A stretch of 10,282 nt of DNA. Origin: Actinomycetota bacterium. Lineage in GTDB: Bacteria > Actinomycetota > Thermoleophilia > Gaiellales > Gaiellaceae. Both the position numbers and the translations under genes were made by a program. The DNA lies in the NCBI GenBank assembly GCA_013694685.1, contig JACDBY010000301.1, positions 1 through 10,282 on the forward strand, read 5' to 3'. The notes beneath the pieces were generated by a model. It saw only the letters and a list, made by a program, of their open reading frames with translations. It made no database searches and was not told the DNA's origin. Positions 5,216-10,189 of this stretch are shown in pieces (within the stretch, counting starts at the first letter, position 1; every line of letters begins with the position of its first letter).

Positions 5216-5692
5216 GTGAGCCTGAACGACTGGATCCTCGCGCTCCACCTCCTCGCGGCCTTCGCGCTCGTCGGCGCGCAGGTCGCCTTCACGTCGATGA
5301 TGGTGGCTCTCTGGCGCACCGACGATCCGCAGCGCGTGGTGGCCTTCAAACGCCCGTCGCAGGTCGCCCAGGTGATGATCATGGCCGGTGTGGCCGGAAC
5401 CCTGATCTTTGGCATCTGGCTCGCGATCTCGCTCGAGGCCTACCAGCTGTGGGACGGCTGGGTAATCGCCGCGTTCGTCCTGTGGGCGATCGCCAGCGGC
5501 CTCGGTCAGCAGATGGGCGAGGCATACGGCAGCTCCGCGACCGAGGCCGAACGGCTCGTCGCCGCGGGGACGCGCTCGAGCCCCGAGCTCGCTGCGACGT
5601 ACGGTCCGTCGAGGGCGTTCCAGTTCCACGTCGCCTCGGTGGTCGTCACGTTCCTGCTCCTTCTCGACATGATCTGGAAGCCCGGCGCATGA
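5216..5692 (+). CDS. Small four-helix integral membrane protein (DUF2269-like)
   Basis: Starting at GTG 5216 the protein has 158 residues and begins SLNDWILALHLLAAFALVGA. Four hydrophobic segments are visible at about 6-32, 50-72, 80-98 and 135-153, with a polar loop at about 99-133 rich in Ala, Ser and Glu. The layout, the His11 in the first helix followed by a small-residue-rich LVGA, and the length resemble DUF2269-type predicted membrane proteins, for which no activity is established. An ATG at 5150 would add 22 Arg- and Pro-rich residues, but it lies upstream of the promoter-like element, so the shorter form is preferred. The stop overlaps the next gene's start (ATGA, 5689-5692), implying translational coupling. 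A related first helix in the next protein suggests a paralogous pair. Confidence 0.72.
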   Translation: MSLNDWILALHLLAAFALVGAQVAFTSMMVALWRTDDPQRVVAFKRPSQVAQVMIMAGVAGTLIFGIWLAISLEAYQLWDGWVIAAFVLWAIASGLGQQMGEAYGSSATEAERLVAAGTRSSPELAATYGPSRAFQFHVASVVVTFLLLLDMIWKPGA

Positions 5693-6141
5693 CGACGCTC
5701 GTCGCCGCGATCCGCCCGGACGACTGGAACTTTCCGCTTCTTCTGCACGTCTTCGGCGCAATGGTGCTCGTCGGCGCCGTGACGGCAGCGGCCGCCTCGT
5801 CACTCGCCGCCGCCGGAAGCGGCGATCCGATCCGGCTCCGGCGCTTTGCGTTCCGCACGCTCCTGATCGTCGGCCTCCCCGCCTACGTCGTGATGCGAAT
5901 CGGCGCGGAGTGGCTCTACTCGAAGGAGTTCGGCGATACGGACGACGACCCGGCCTGGATCGGGATCGGCTACATCACCGCAGACATCGGCGCCGTGCTC
6001 TTCCTGATCGCGCTCGCGTGCGCGGGCGTTGCCTCGTGGAAGTCGAAGGACGGTCTCGGCAAGGCGTCGGGCGTGATCGTCGCGATCGCCCTCGTCGGCT
6101 GGCTCGTGGCTGTGTGGGCGATGGGAGCAAAGCCGAGCTGA
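5689..6141 (+). CDS. Small four-helix integral membrane protein, partner of the preceding gene
   Basis: The 150-residue product starts at ATG 5689, overlapping the upstream stop by ATGA. The frame is open further upstream, but that part would sit inside the previous gene. Hydrophobic segments lie at about 15-41, 55-72, 90-114 and 126-145, with an acidic loop (FGDTDDDPAW, 81-90) between the second and third. The first helix contains LLLHVFGAMVLVGA, similar to the LH...LVGA pattern of its neighbour, with a His in the membrane at residue 20. The two proteins probably form a complex or a divergently evolved tandem duplication. No function can be assigned. Ten bases after the stop begins the first copy of the palindromic repeat, which could act as a 3' hairpin for this transcript. 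Confidence 0.75.
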   Translation: MTTLVAAIRPDDWNFPLLLHVFGAMVLVGAVTAAAASSLAAAGSGDPIRLRRFAFRTLLIVGLPAYVVMRIGAEWLYSKEFGDTDDDPAWIGIGYITADIGAVLFLIALACAGVASWKSKDGLGKASGVIVAIALVGWLVAVWAMGAKPS

Positions 6142-6150
6142 GCCTCACCC

Positions 6151-6179
6151 GGTGTCAGGCTTCAGCCAGACACCTGCTC
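6151..6179 (+). repeat. Palindromic repeat copy 1 (R1)
   Basis: Arms GGTGTCAGGCT (6151-6161) and AGCCAGACACC (6164-6174) pair with one A/A mismatch around TC; the tail is TGCTC (6175-6179). It begins 10 bp after the membrane-protein stop. On the minus strand it would read E-Q-V-S-G-stop, the same layout as the other copies, but no gene uses it. A second stem, CACCTGC (6171-6177) with GCAGGTG (6184-6190), overlaps the right arm of R1 and ends immediately before copy 2, so the two copies form a compact pair with alternative folds. Confidence 0.8.
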
Positions 6180-6190
6180 CTCTGCAGGTG

Positions 6191-6218
6191 GTGTCCGACT
6201 TCAGTCGGACACGTGCTC
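6191..6218 (+). repeat. Palindromic repeat copy 2 (R2), forming the 3' end of the macrodomain gene
   Basis: Perfect 10-bp arms GTGTCCGACT (6191-6200) and AGTCGGACAC (6203-6212) around TC, then tail GTGCTC (6213-6218). On the minus strand the tail and left arm encode Glu-His-Val-Ser-Asp, and the TGA (6201-6203) lies at the centre of the palindrome. The last five residues and the stop of the macrodomain protein therefore come from the repeat. Confidence 0.88.
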
Positions 6219-6719
6219 TGCGATCCGCGACGCGAGCGCGTGCGTCTCGCTCCCGAAGAGCACGAGCCGAGCCTCCTCCACGTTCGCCTGCGCCGCGCGC
6301 ATCCCGGCGAGCGCCTGCCGCACGGCATCGTCGAGCGGCCAGCCGTACGCCCCGGCAGAGATCAGCGGGAACGCGACGGACGCGGCCCCGAGCTCGTCGG
6401 CGACGACGAGCGAGCTCGAGTAACAGGAACGGAGCGTCGCGCTCTGATCGCGCCGTGCGTCGTACACGGGTCCGACGGTGTGGATCACCCAGCGCGCAGC
6501 GAGCGAGCCGGCGGTCGTCGCGACGGCGTCACCGGCCGGCAACCCGTCGGGGTAGTGAGTCGCCCGGAGCTCCCGGCACTCGGCGAGGATCGCCGGCCCG
6601 CCGCGCCGGTGGATCGCCCCGTCCACGCCACCGCCGCCGAGGAGCGACGAGTTGGCCGCATTGACAATCGCGTCGACGTCCTGCGCCGTAATGTCCCCTT
6701 CGACGAGCTCGATCCGCAT
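6201..6719 (-). CDS. Macrodomain protein, YmdB/MacroD-type ADP-ribosyl hydrolase
   Basis: The 172-residue protein is a single macrodomain, near the length of E. coli YmdB (177). Ligand-binding motifs are present in order: EGDIT (7-11), VDAIVNAANSSLLGGGGVDG (15-34), HTVGPVY (80-86) and PLISAGAYGWP (118-128). Asn23 and Asp33 match the residues implicated in catalysis in YmdB (Asn25, Asp35). Enzymes of this type remove the acetyl group from O-acetyl-ADP-ribose or mono-ADP-ribose from protein side chains. It starts at ATG 6719 without an obvious Shine-Dalgarno; a GTGTG-T-CACAC palindrome lies 23 bp upstream (6743-6753). The C-terminus EHVSD and the stop come from repeat copy 2 and are probably not part of the ancestral protein. 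It lies 119 bp downstream of the helicase gene on the same strand, so cotranscription is possible. Confidence 0.9.
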   Translation of the reverse strand: MRIELVEGDITAQDVDAIVNAANSSLLGGGGVDGAIHRRGGPAILAECRELRATHYPDGLPAGDAVATTAGSLAARWVIHTVGPVYDARRDQSATLRSCYSSSLVVADELGAASVAFPLISAGAYGWPLDDAVRQALAGMRAAQANVEEARLVLFGSETHALASRIAEHVSD

Positions 6720-6742
6720 GAGCGGATCATCGCGGCTCGGAG

Positions 6743-6753
6743 GTGTGTCACAC
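6743..6753. promoter_or_regulatory. Short palindrome upstream of the macrodomain gene
   Basis: GTGTG-T-CACAC is a perfect odd palindrome centred 29 bp upstream of the ATG at 6719. Its position suits an operator, but it is short, stands alone and has no recognised binding protein. Confidence 0.2.
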
Positions 6754-6829
6754 GAGGGGTCGAACGAGCGAAGCCACGTGAACCGGCGGAAGGCCGTGGT
6801 CGTGCGAGGCGAGCACGAGCCCGCGTCCT

Positions 6830-6856
6830 GTGTCCGACTCAGTCGGACACGTGCTC
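6830..6856 (+). repeat. Palindromic repeat copy 3 (R3), forming the 3' end of the helicase gene
   Basis: Arms GTGTCCGACT (6830-6839) and AGTCGGACAC (6841-6850) are perfect around a single C; the tail is GTGCTC (6851-6856). On the minus strand it encodes Glu-His-Val-Ser-Asp and the TGA (6839-6841), as copy 2 does for the macrodomain gene. An outer inverted repeat, GAGCACG (6811-6817) with CGTGCTC (6850-6856), encloses the palindrome. A further stem TCGTGC/GCACGA (6800-6805, 6813-6818) lies next to it. Confidence 0.88.
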
Positions 6857-9800
6857 TCCCCCGCCCAACTCGACAAACCGGCTCACTGCGCTAACGAGCC
6901 GCATCTGGTCGATCGTCGCGCAGTCGGCGTCGAGCAGCGCGGGCGAGCACACGAGCACTGCGCGGCACTGCGCGCGTGAGGTGGCGACGTTGAAGCGGTG
7001 CGAGCTGAACGCGAAGCCGATCCCGCGCGGCGCTTCCTCCGTTGACGAGCTCGCCATCGAGACGAAGACGACCGGCGCCTGCTGCCCCTGGAACTTGTCC
7101 ACGGTGCCGACCGGGACACTGTCGGGCAAGCGGGAGCGCAGCAGCCGCACCTGCGCGTTGTAGGGCGCGACGACGAGCACGTCCGTGGCGGCGAGCGGTC
7201 GCGTCTCGCCGGACTCGTCGGTGAACGGCGTTCCGAGCAGCCCGTCAATCAGCCCCGCGATCGCGATCGCCTCCTCCGGCGAGGACTGGCCATGCCCCTC
7301 GTGCTCGCTCGGCACCCAGACCGGCCCGTTGCCCGCGGACAGCGAGCGCCGCGCGGCGTCGGGCGCGTAGCCGAGCCTCCCCTCGTAGTACGCCTGCGAC
7401 GTGAAGGCGCAGAGCTCGGGTCGCAGGCGCCACGTCTCGGCGAGGAAGAGCCCGCGATCGGGCGGCACGGTCTCGTGCTCGCCGAGCAGGTGCTCGAGGA
7501 CGGAGAGCCCCGAGTTTTCGGGATGCGAGCCCTGCGAGACCTGCGGCAGCTGGTTGGGGTCGCCGAGCAGGACGAGCGAGCGGGCCGCCGTGCCGACGGC
7601 GAGCACATCGGCAAGGGCCAGCTGTCCCGCCTCGTCGACGAAGAGGCAATCGAGCGGACGCTCCGCCGCGTGAATGTCGACTGTCTCGCGAGAGAAGGCC
7701 CAGGCCGTGCCCGCGACGAGGTCGAAGGACGGGTCGGCGCACACGTCCGGATCCTTCGACGCGAGGATGGAAGGAATCGCCGGGGACGTCTCCGCCTCGT
7801 CCGCCTCCCGTGCACGCCGAGCGCCCTGGAAGGCGAAGCCCTGCCTGTCGGCCTCGTGCTGGATCGCGCGGAGCATGTTGTGAATCGCCTTGTGGCTGAG
7901 GGAGGTGACGCCGACGCGCTTGCCGGCCCTCATCAGCGCAACAGCCATCCGCGCTCCCTGCCACGTCTTTCCGGAACCCGGCGGCCCCTGCACGAAGAGG
8001 TAGCTCTCCGCGAGCGAGAGCGCCGCAGCGACGGGATCGACGTCGAGCCGCACGTCGGGCGGCTGCCGCTCGAGGAGCGCGGTGAGCGCCGGATAGGCGC
8101 CGAGCTCTCCGTCTGCGTACGCGAGAGCGAAGCGGCCGAGCCCTTCGCGCTTCACCCGGTCGCCGATCGGGCCGCCGGGTGTCAGTCCACGCGGAAGCGG
8201 CTCCTCCGCCCGCTCGGTGCCGCGGAGGAGCGTGACCACGCCGTGGTCGTCGTCGACGCGAATGCGGTACCCCTTCTGCGTGTCGGCGTCGAAAGACCGG
8301 CCCGTCAGCTTGTGCTCCTGCGGCGGGAAGGTCAGGCGGTACGCGTGGCTCTCGCCCTCGACCTCGGGCTGCGCCCCGTCCCACCTCAGTCCGCCGATCG
8401 CGGTGCGGTCGCGGATCAGCTCGTCCTCGTCGAGTTGCGGCCAGCGGAACCAGGCCCACCATTGCGGGCGCGCCTCGCGCTGGTGGTAGTCGACGAGGTG
8501 GCCGAGGAGGCGTCGCGGCTCACCGGGCTCGGTGCCCTCGAGCAGACGTGCGCAGAGCGCCGCCCGCTCCTCGTCGCGGTGCTTCGCCTCTTCCTTCTGC
8601 GGCCGCTGATCGGGGGGCGCGCGCCACGGCACCTCGCCCGGCCGGATCGAGAGCAGCCACTCGTGCAACTCGTAGGTCGAGCGGCAGTCCTCCTCGTTGT
8701 AGCGCTCGACCTCCGTGAGGAGCGTCTCGTCGCCGGTCTCGAGCCAGGTCTCGAACGAGACGACCGCGTCGTCGCCGCCCTTCACCGTGGCGCTGCGGCT
8801 GAACCCGTAGAGCGCCTCGATCGCCTTGATCGAGTAGCTGTCCGTCGAGGCGCGGAGCGACTGCTTGACGATCCGGTAGAGGTCGACGAGCACCTCGCCG
8901 CGCAGGAAGTCGTCGACCTCGCGCTCGCGCGTCCCGTGCTCGCCCATCAGCCGCGTCAGCGCGGTGCGCTCGTAGGCCGCGTAGTGGTAGACGTGCAGCG
9001 CGGGGTGCCGCCGCCGTCGCTCGACGACCCAGTCGACGAAACGCGTGAAGACCTCGCACTCCTCGTCGCGGTCGCGCGCCCAGAGCGCCTCGTAGCGCAC
9101 CTCGCCCGCGTCGTCGCGGTAGCAGTAGCCGAACAGGAACTCGCGCCCGCGTGCTGACTCGTAGAACGGGTGGCCCTCGAGGTCGAGCCAGACGTCGCCG
9201 TGATCGGGCGCCGGCAGGAGCCGGAACCCGCGCTCCTCCTCGTCGTCCAGGAGCTCGTAGAGGTGCGTGCCGGTCACTCGCCCGCGGAGCTGGAGCTCGG
9301 CCTGGTGCCGCACCCTCTCGAACGTCTCGGCCCGCAGCCCGCCGGGCGGCTTGCCGACTGAGTCGGTGTCCGGCTTCAGCCCGACACGTGCTCTCCCACC
9401 GTCCGCCAGCGCCCCGAGCTCGTCGAGCGTGCCGATCCCGTCCGCCATGAGCCCCTCCGCCCACCCCCGCCGCATGCCGGCGACGAGCACGAGATGATCG
9501 TCCGCCACGAGCCGAGCCCGGCAGAAGTTCCGGAAGTCGCAGATCCCGCAGTGCCCGCACGGCCAGGGATACGTCTCGTCCTCGCGCTCGAGCGCGGCCA
9601 GAAACCGCCCACGCACCCGCCGGTAGTAGGCCTGGAACTCGGCGACGCGGAAGCTCTCCCGCTCCCCGCGCCCGTTCTCGACGTGCACGCGCTCGACCGG
9701 AGCGCCCTGCAGCCGCTCCACCTGCTCGGCGTAGAAGAGGAGCTGGAGCAGGTGCGCGGGCTTGGCCGAGCGGGCGAGCTTCGTGTCGACTGGCTCGTAG

Positions 9801-10189
9801 GTCACGCCAGGGATCAGCTCGAGGAAGTCCGCGAACCCGCGCCAGCGCCCGTCCGCGCTCGTGAGGTAGGGCTGGTAGATCACGTCGGCAACGTGCCCGC
9901 GGATCGCCTCCTCGGTGAGGCGCCGCGCCTCTTCACGGTCGAAGTCGGGATCGTCGTAGGTCGGGATGCGGACGATCGAACGGCCGAGCGCCTCGAGCCG
10001 CGCGAGATAGGCGGCCTCGTGCTCCATGCCCTTGCGCCGGATCAGATCGACGCGGGTGTCGTCGGCGTACGGCCGCTCGAGCTCCCCGCGCTGCACCGCG
10101 ACATCGAGGTTTGTCAGGTGTGGGCACGCGAGATGGTTCGAGAGATCGGAGGGCGAGAGCCGGAGCGTGCCGTCATCAGCGATGCGCAT
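6839..10189 (-). CDS. TM0106-type RecB-like Fe-S nuclease / RNase H-like exonuclease / SF1 helicase fusion
   Basis: This 1116-residue protein has three modules. Residues 1-230 are a RecB/Cas4-like nuclease: His57, Asp121, Asp135-Thr-Lys137 and the QxxxY motif at 149-153, with Cys22 and a Cys cluster at 211, 214, 217 and 223 that could bind a 4Fe-4S centre as in AddB and Cas4. Residues 330-515 are an RNase H-like domain with DEDD-type residues Asp336, Glu338, Asp436 and Asp501. Residues 720-1090 form a superfamily 1 DNA2/NAM7 (Upf1-like) helicase: Walker A GPPGSGKT (735-742), DEAG (852-855), GDPNQL (876-881), VDKFQGQQ (1030-1037) and NVATSRAQ (1067-1074). All key residues appear intact, so a DNA repair or nucleic-acid processing role is likely, though the pathway for this family is not established. 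Residues 266-279 and the final EHVSD are encoded by palindromic repeats. The start is ATG 10189, without a clear Shine-Dalgarno. Confidence 0.9.
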   Translation of the reverse strand: MRIADDGTLRLSPSDLSNHLACPHLTNLDVAVQRGELERPYADDTRVDLIRRKGMEHEAAYLARLEALGRSIVRIPTYDDPDFDREEARRLTEEAIRGHVADVIYQPYLTSADGRWRGFADFLELIPGVTYEPVDTKLARSAKPAHLLQLLFYAEQVERLQGAPVERVHVENGRGERESFRVAEFQAYYRRVRGRFLAALEREDETYPWPCGHCGICDFRNFCRARLVADDHLVLVAGMRRGWAEGLMADGIGTLDELGALADGGRARVGLKPDTDSVGKPPGGLRAETFERVRHQAELQLRGRVTGTHLYELLDDEEERGFRLLPAPDHGDVWLDLEGHPFYESARGREFLFGYCYRDDAGEVRYEALWARDRDEECEVFTRFVDWVVERRRRHPALHVYHYAAYERTALTRLMGEHGTREREVDDFLRGEVLVDLYRIVKQSLRASTDSYSIKAIEALYGFSRSATVKGGDDAVVSFETWLETGDETLLTEVERYNEEDCRSTYELHEWLLSIRPGEVPWRAPPDQRPQKEEAKHRDEERAALCARLLEGTEPGEPRRLLGHLVDYHQREARPQWWAWFRWPQLDEDELIRDRTAIGGLRWDGAQPEVEGESHAYRLTFPPQEHKLTGRSFDADTQKGYRIRVDDDHGVVTLLRGTERAEEPLPRGLTPGGPIGDRVKREGLGRFALAYADGELGAYPALTALLERQPPDVRLDVDPVAAALSLAESYLFVQGPPGSGKTWQGARMAVALMRAGKRVGVTSLSHKAIHNMLRAIQHEADRQGFAFQGARRAREADEAETSPAIPSILASKDPDVCADPSFDLVAGTAWAFSRETVDIHAAERPLDCLFVDEAGQLALADVLAVGTAARSLVLLGDPNQLPQVSQGSHPENSGLSVLEHLLGEHETVPPDRGLFLAETWRLRPELCAFTSQAYYEGRLGYAPDAARRSLSAGNGPVWVPSEHEGHGQSSPEEAIAIAGLIDGLLGTPFTDESGETRPLAATDVLVVAPYNAQVRLLRSRLPDSVPVGTVDKFQGQQAPVVFVSMASSSTEEAPRGIGFAFSSHRFNVATSRAQCRAVLVCSPALLDADCATIDQMRLVSAVSRFVELGGGEHVSD
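9354..9393 (+). repeat. Palindromic repeat copy 4 (R4) inside the helicase gene
   Basis: Arms GTGTCCGGCT (9366-9375) and AGCCCGACAC (9378-9387) pair with one C/C mismatch around TC; the tail is GTGCTC (9388-9393). Next to it is a 13-bp palindrome, CCGACT-G-AGTCGG (9354-9366), identical to the core of copy 3 on the opposite strand. It is read in a different frame from copies 2 and 3 and gives Arg266-Ala-Arg-Val-Gly-Leu-Lys-Pro-Asp-Thr-Asp-Ser-Val-Gly279 in the linker between the Fe-S nuclease and the RNase H-like domain. The TGA is out of frame here, so the gene stays open. Confidence 0.82.

Follow-up and report, generated by a model that had tools for sequence, protein, structure and literature searches.

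Background

Among the closest described counterparts of the element treated here are the GTAG-tagged repetitive extragenic palindromes (REPs). In the survey of Di Nocera et al. (2013, PMC3733652), these appear as multi-copy palindromes of 20-40 nt which reside mostly in tandem or convergent gene gaps near stop codons, lend stop codons to adjoining genes, are sometimes found inside repair genes including recB, and in most host species are linked to a RAYT, i.e. a REP-associated HUH/Y1 tyrosine transposase. Here, we analysed a stretch of 10,282 nucleotides from an Actinomycetota bacterium (assembly GCA_013694685.1, contig JACDBY010000301.1; hereafter the window), which carries four copies of a short hairpin. 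Its anatomy, placement, lending of stop codons, and occasional insertion into a repair gene match what is recounted in that survey for GTAG- and CGTC-tagged REPs, and we consider it very likely that the hairpins constitute a new, non-autonomous REP family moved as single-stranded DNA by a RAYT.

Several other systems are relevant for comparison. In the REPIN model (Bertels and Rainey 2011, PMC3116915), which rests on inverted REP doublets, singlets are regarded as decayed remnants. With respect to the transposase, cleavage by TnpA-REP is reported to require the unpaired tag of the REP, and changing the tag shifted the cleavage dinucleotide in one system, while the attempt failed in two others (PMC8266576). 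The CGTC-tagged REPs and the Rickettsia palindromic elements, as described in PMC3733652, share with our family the palindrome, some in-frame insertions into genes, and the failure to find a linked transposase in the own genome; they differ in that CGTC is not among the common tags here, copies are mostly extragenic, and a sister species possesses a linked RAYT. The term “Actinobacteria” occurs nowhere in the main text of the GTAG REP survey (PMC3733652), and the Actinobacteridae sampled in PMC6006769 carried only the IS200 subclass, whereas in the family to which the window's genome belongs, taken to be Gaiellaceae, a RAYT query found matches in 82 of the 103 genomes searched. Our findings thereby place a REP/RAYT system in Actinomycetota, a phylum for which the open-licence literature yielded nothing on extragenic palindromes in Thermoleophilia, on RAYT-linked ones in Actinobacteria, or, by title, on Gaiella palindromes.

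The hairpin family and its spread

The hairpin comprises 22 nt, GTGTCNGNCT-TC-AGNCNGACAC. The window's own genome (G000; 2.56 Mb in 493 contigs, 86.7% complete) is related to Gaiella sp. FR_16 (Actinomycetota, Thermoleophilia, Gaiellales, Gaiellaceae) at the level of the genus and was placed in the same genus as G004; G003 and G004 are sister species. With a centre of 1-4 nt, the hairpin pattern matched 79 times in G000 and not once in the backward control, so that neither of the outcomes which the original prediction had held fatal to a family, namely four copies only or the frequency of shuffled sequence, was found. Of the 151 genomes searched, G000 included, seven had exact TC-centred copies, with 76 in G000, 60 in G004, 15 in G003, 2 in G018, and a single one in each of G001, G056, and G057; the remaining 144 had none. 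The spread is patchy, with any exact match in 6 of 150 relatives (G000 excluded) and at most one exact copy in 4 of 7 same-genus genomes. The genome search by covariance model that had been proposed for this repeat (model from 86 copies, E 0.001, 150 first-look candidates scored per genome, 17 genomes) returned 110 matches in G000, 77 in G004, 18 in G003, 3 in G018, and 1 each in G001 and G057. The remaining 11 of the 17 genomes gave no match, G056 among them, leaving its single exact copy unconfirmed. In a collection of 84,980 species, the search of which may omit the window's own genome, the exact 22-mer was recovered in 41 stretches. One Gaiella sp. FR_16 record accounts for 34 of these, a Thermoleophilia metagenome-assembled genome (MAG) for 4, and MAGs of Actinomycetota for 2; the last belongs to a Chloroflexi MAG that shares its sample series with one of the Actinomycetota MAGs. 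As in REPs, a palindrome within the 20-40 nt range thus occurs in many dispersed copies.

A palindromic 22-mer that is nearly fixed across three sister genomes could also be conserved as double-stranded DNA, for instance as a parS- or KOPS-like site bound by a chromosome-organising protein. We regard this as most improbable, since the palindrome is absent or nearly so from four congeners, tolerates compensated variants, forms tandem arrays, is inserted in a gene, and in G004 is linked to a RAYT.

The unit conserved in G000 consists of the hairpin plus seven unpaired bases. On the window's minus strand, these read AGAGCAC and precede the hairpin on its 5' side; on the plus strand, they read GTGCTCT. 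Outside this unit, conservation was near background save for a weak G at position -9, as judged from 47 G000 copies with the exact AGAGCAC tag. The eleven stem pairs were formed in 96.1% of the alignment cells, compared with 15-41% in slid controls. Furthermore, 52 cells had changed on both sides versus 15.0 in shuffles, and the covariation score amounted to 0.180 versus 0.069, with none of 500 shuffles as high in either measure. These double changes were confined to three stem pairs (shuffles give 2.9 such pairs), and as the copies are also related to each other, the number of independent covariation events is low. The hairpin is thus kept through paired changes, as in REPs, though the events are few.

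Stable hairpins would also suit functional RNA elements, such as terminators or stabilisers of mRNA 3' ends, which would be maintained by selection at gene ends rather than by mobility. The occurrence of U-G at the outermost pair, in 20 of 86 copies, is in line with such a role; against it, a terminator needs no single fixed 22-nt sequence, and no T-run is conserved beside the hairpin.

Placement relative to genes

Genes were predicted with a home-made codon-usage script trained on the same contigs, and the random-placement control was drawn from the fetched loci, many of which are centred on a copy; with up to one mismatch allowed, these loci contained 104 G000 copies for the control and 93 for the comparison of gene pairs. 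Only 8 of the 104 copies lay inside predicted genes, compared with 89.2 expected at random, and several of these are near predicted ends and may be intergenic. Gene 3' ends were overlapped by 14 copies (1.9 at random) and 5' ends by none (1.9), while 49 were situated in tandem gaps (5.0), 19 in convergent gaps (1.1), 6 in divergent gaps (2.1), and 8 at a contig edge (2.7). The 77 copies of G004 showed a similar distribution, with 4 inside predicted genes (64.1 at random), 7 over 3' ends (1.3), none over 5' ends (1.5), 37 in tandem (4.7), 19 in convergent (1.9), and 8 in divergent gaps (2.1), and 2 at a contig edge (1.3). By these gene calls, the family is mainly extragenic and lies near gene 3' ends, as REPs do.

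The strong bias toward 3' ends and convergent gaps is an argument for an RNA element. The low number of copies inside predicted genes speaks against a family specialised for insertion into coding sequences in the manner of Rickettsia palindromic elements, which had been one of the two comparisons drawn by the original prediction. Such a specialisation suits copy 4 of the window, an in-frame insert described below, and a few other copies; a preference for genes was not observed, and with only 8 of 104 copies inside them this explanation is largely refuted by placement and, in our view, scarcely credible. The other comparison, “REP/BIME-like”, was supported by the many copies, their extragenic placement, and the paired stem changes, as well as by the inverted doublets and the RAYT between copies in the sister species, to which we return below.

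Copies behind genes also contribute to the encoded proteins. Since GAG CAC GTG TCC GAC TGA is the reading of the hairpin strand, fifteen different G000 proteins beside copies terminate in VSD, and nine of these have the longer ending EHVSD; the window contributes two of the fifteen, its macro-domain protein and its nuclease/helicase. Thus, the stop codon stems from the TGA at the hairpin centre, whereas in GTAG-tagged REPs it is provided by the TAG of the tag, according to the description in PMC3733652, and the tag itself is AGAGCAC in G000. Orientation at gene 3' ends was one-sided (14 of 14 G000 copies), which follows from composition: in the usual sequence, such a stop is available on the tag strand alone. 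The initial impression that copies always share one orientation holds for the window but not for the genome, where 36 of the exact copies point forward along their contigs and 40 point in reverse, and copies between tandem genes comprise 24 in the same and 21 in the opposite orientation.

Copy 4 is situated in frame within the nuclease/helicase gene at 6839-10189, being translated as ...RARVGLKPDT.... It is absent from all 7 homologues that could be aligned, which come from the same family of genomes and lack 13-15 residues there; an eighth homologue was unalignable at this site and left out of the count. The C-termini of the homologues of this gene differ from one another, and EHVSD is present in none of them. 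Together, the fifteen ...VSD* proteins with a stop in the hairpin and copy 4 inside the nuclease/helicase indicate that such hairpins reshape proteins.

When the 93 G000 and 77 G004 copies were compared by a reading of eight gene-pair matches, only two gene gaps held copies in both genomes. By a rough estimate, coincidence would produce about this many shared gaps, and the two genomes, with almost no sites in common, therefore seem to have been populated largely independently. The RNA-element explanation, which would have the hairpins preserved at their genes, is difficult to reconcile with only two gaps in common, and likewise with one or no exact copy in 4 of 7 same-genus genomes, with copy 4 inside a gene, and with the RAYT between copies in G004. 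We thus consider it improbable as the origin of the family, while the hairpins may have a secondary RNA role.

A RAYT gene between hairpin copies in a sister species

A search for a linked RAYT, also suggested at the outset, succeeded in the sister species G004; in the G000 assembly, no RAYT was found next to the repeat. Using the RAYT protein of G001 as query, the G004 gene was located at C1:32041-32679. Its TGA stop lies inside a downstream hairpin copy at 32031-32052, and a six-copy array (32750-33072, period of ~60 nt) directly precedes it upstream, so that the same REP flanks the gene on both sides. The same contig carries another tandem array of the hairpin at 2343873-2344543, with a period of ~133 nt.

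The G004 protein matched NF047646 (E 1.4e-12) and, judged by its sequence, possesses the HUH motif and catalytic tyrosine of the Y1/TnpA-REP family, residues H60, H62, Y119, and N123 being invariant in 56 sequences. A profile of 56 rows matched the E. coli TnpA-REP structure 4er8 in the PDB at 1e-9, other transposase chains reaching ~1e-3, while the lone sequence matched no relevant PDB chain; the predicted fold was confident (predicted local distance difference test, pLDDT, 91.7). In its HxH plus Tyr motif, the NF047646 and 4er8 matches, and a REP on either side, it resembles the RAYT/TnpA-REP/REPtron systems as presented in PMC6006769 and PMC8266576, from which it departs by scores below the curated cut-offs.

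In a quick 64-sequence tree, the RAYTs of G004 and G001 were sisters. The latter (L063:1207-1827; NF047646 52.7 bits) is flanked by three copies of GGGTGAGGCTTCAGCCTCACCC on one side, one of them imperfect, and by one on the other; GGGTGAGGCTTCAGCCTCACCC is a different 22-nt hairpin sharing the CTTCAG centre. This second hairpin was noted at L322 (G001:C229, 3240-4122), beside a RAYT, and at L319 (G003:C2, 4388-4608), adjoining copies of the window's hairpin. Among 66 RAYT loci surveyed (flanks of 350 nt, perfect arms of at least 8), 22-nt hairpins centred on CTTCAG/CTGAAG occurred at L063 of G001, on both sides, and at L248 of G004, the same gene as in L152, where only the upstream side was registered because the downstream copy overlaps the gene. 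The remaining loci had palindromes of other kinds, or none. Flanks of RAYT genes read in the window's family contained varied short palindromes, e.g. GTGTCNGACAC, GTGCCNGGCAC, and GGGGTCNGACCCC. The Pfam family Y1_Tnp was tried as a search key and abandoned: of 91 genomes in the family, it detected genes in 68, and the RAYTs looked at in REP-bearing genomes had other repeats or none, the window's hairpin being absent from the flanks retrieved (at most 1.5 kb).

In G000, the G001 query matched only a gene on contig C241, at 37% identity, and a gene on C216 that was hit in two pieces lying in different frames. The C241 gene (2700-3520, L034) is intact, reaches 80.2 bits with NF047646 (cut-off 80), and is flanked on either side by an inverted repeat of its own, CGTGCCAGGCACGTAG. 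The C216 gene (3600-4714, L035) is RAYT-like, apparently frameshifted, and located between direct copies of a 36-nt unit with GGGGACTGGCCCC and GGCCTGTCCCC. Being the only intact RAYT found in the G000 assembly, the C241 protein might have spread the window's copies in trans, or an unrelated transposase might have done so, and the differing tags of G000 and G004 would fit another enzyme. From a survey of RAYT-type genes, we hold this to be unlikely, given that the C241 RAYT is flanked by its own repeat and, in the midpoint-rooted tree, lies in the half that does not contain the G004 RAYT, and that the true orthologue may be missing since the G000 assembly is incomplete. Rather, the window's copies would have been moved by the G004 RAYT or by an orthologue of it that was lost or not assembled.

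Tags, doublets, and the proposed mechanism

While the hairpin core is the same in the three sister species, its unpaired 5' tag differs. In G004, G[TG]NG was found at the hairpin foot in 38 of 79 copies (17 GT[AG]G, 10 GGAG); the 21 copies of G003 have the consensus A-AGCC, 9 of them ending in AGCC and 2 containing GAGC; and in G000, with its tag AGAGCAC, GAGC was present near the foot in 73 of 102 copies. A comparison by eye of the G004 tag with the flanking dinucleotide gave nothing clear. One tentative explanation, which we rate as possible but would not favour, is a natural switching of guides, in which the sister species kept the hairpin, presumably the part gripped by the enzyme, and exchanged the tag, so that cleavage and target specificity would have been rewritten, the G000 lineage moving as single hairpins. 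Founder effects, by which the family of each species would have expanded from a copy that happened to have other bases beside it, remain as an alternative. The same hairpin with differing tags in congeners provides a natural test of the proposal that the tag is a programmable guide.

The two genomes also differ in the grouping of copies. In G004, most copies (52 of 79) are clustered, chiefly as tag-inward inverted doublets reminiscent of REPINs as depicted in PMC3116915; 13 of 18 tag-inward pairs have a spacer of 27-33 nt, and spacers are alike in length and not in sequence, as is often the case in doublets of GTAG-tagged REPs in the survey PMC3733652. Identity of singlets and clustered copies in G004 was 0.898 and 0.924, a difference that was not significant (p 0.438). 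As a side observation, a half-arm, GTGTCCGAC, occurs beside G000 singlets, within 60 nt to the left in 12 of 61 and to the right in 2 (one mismatch allowed, chance level not computed); seen on the TC strand, it adjoins the left side of the hairpin in L015, L102, L119, L133, and other loci.

By analogy with the described systems, we propose that a unit of ~29-31 nt, in which a hairpin of 10-11 bp is tipped by TC or TTCA and accompanied by an unpaired tag on its 5' side, would be bound as single-stranded DNA by the RAYT; the tag may guide the choice of the cleavage site, and the excised copy would then be joined into a new site. Copies would persist mainly between genes or behind stops, where an insertion presumably harms little and the TGA of the hairpin can serve as a stop.

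A number of observations weigh against this model. Mobility and every biochemical step in it are inferred. At the G004 RAYT, the downstream copy and four of the six upstream copies carry one mismatch to the core, two being exact. The protein scores below both curated cut-offs, with 47.7 of 80 bits for NCBIfam and 19.4 of 23 bits for Pfam Y1_Tnp, by which it was missed, and the support for its pairing with the G001 RAYT is moderate (Shimodaira-Hasegawa-like approximate likelihood ratio test, SH-aLRT, 84). Within G000 (86.7% complete), both RAYT genes lack a flanking hairpin: contig C241 is devoid of the window's hairpin, and on C216 the nearest copy is ~3.3 kb from the gene. Moreover, the canonical G[TG]NG tag was found in none of 102 G000 copies, so a GTAG-like tetranucleotide at the hairpin foot, typical of the GTAG-REP superfamily, is lacking in this genome. 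Finally, G000 copies are mostly singlets (61 of 97), and these are no more decayed than clustered copies (identity 0.907 versus 0.855, permutation p 0.072), which runs counter to the prediction of the REPIN model, where doublets should predominate and singlets be decayed. Since the family behaves in its own genome neither like GTAG-tagged REPs in its tag nor like REPINs in its doublets, we file it as a variant kind of REP family, RAYT-linked in a sister species, and as neither a GTAG-REP nor a REPIN.

The four copies in the window

All four copies reside on the plus strand and were recovered to within 1-2 nt of the places originally predicted, with [CG]TGCTC after every hairpin. Copy 1 (6152-6180) consists of an imperfect hairpin at 6152-6173 and the tail CTGCTCC to 6180, the covariance model matching 6150-6182 with 45.8 bits. 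It begins 10 nt past the stop of a predicted plus-strand gene at 5689-6141, which is convergent with the gene at 6201-6719 and had no Pfam match at 0.001. Copy 2 (6191-6219; 52.9 bits) is a perfect hairpin at 6191-6212 with the tail GTGCTCT. The macro-domain gene (PF01661; 6201-6719, minus strand) has its 3' end within this copy and takes its final codons and its TGA stop (...EHVSD*) from the copy's minus strand. Copy 3 (6830-6857; 45.6 bits) has perfect arms at 6830-6850, a centre one base shorter, and the tail GTGCTCT; in the same way, its minus strand provides the final codons and TGA stop (...EHVSD*) of the minus-strand gene at 6839-10189, which encodes the nuclease/helicase of 1116 aa (RNase H-like, PF13482; PD-(D/E)XK, PF12705; AAA, PF13087) and also hosts copy 4 (9366-9394; 47.1 bits), a hairpin at 9366-9387 with the tail GTGCTCT.

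At arm position 8, the paired change was reproduced as originally predicted, copies 2 and 3 having A:T and copies 1 and 4 G:C; pairing is not kept throughout, as position 6 is unpaired in copy 1 (A.A) and copy 4 (C.C), making both imperfect hairpins. Rfam gave no match in the window. A TTCA-centred pattern with up to 3 mismatches, which does not cover the shorter centre of copy 3, matched 6 times in the window, namely copies 1, 2, and 4 on both strands, and had zero matches in 200 dinucleotide shuffles of the window. Folded as single-stranded DNA, copies 2 and 3 reached -9.8 and -9.9 kcal/mol, and copies 1 and 4 reached -7.7 and -5.7 kcal/mol, copy 4 folding modestly better than its own shuffles (z -1.34).

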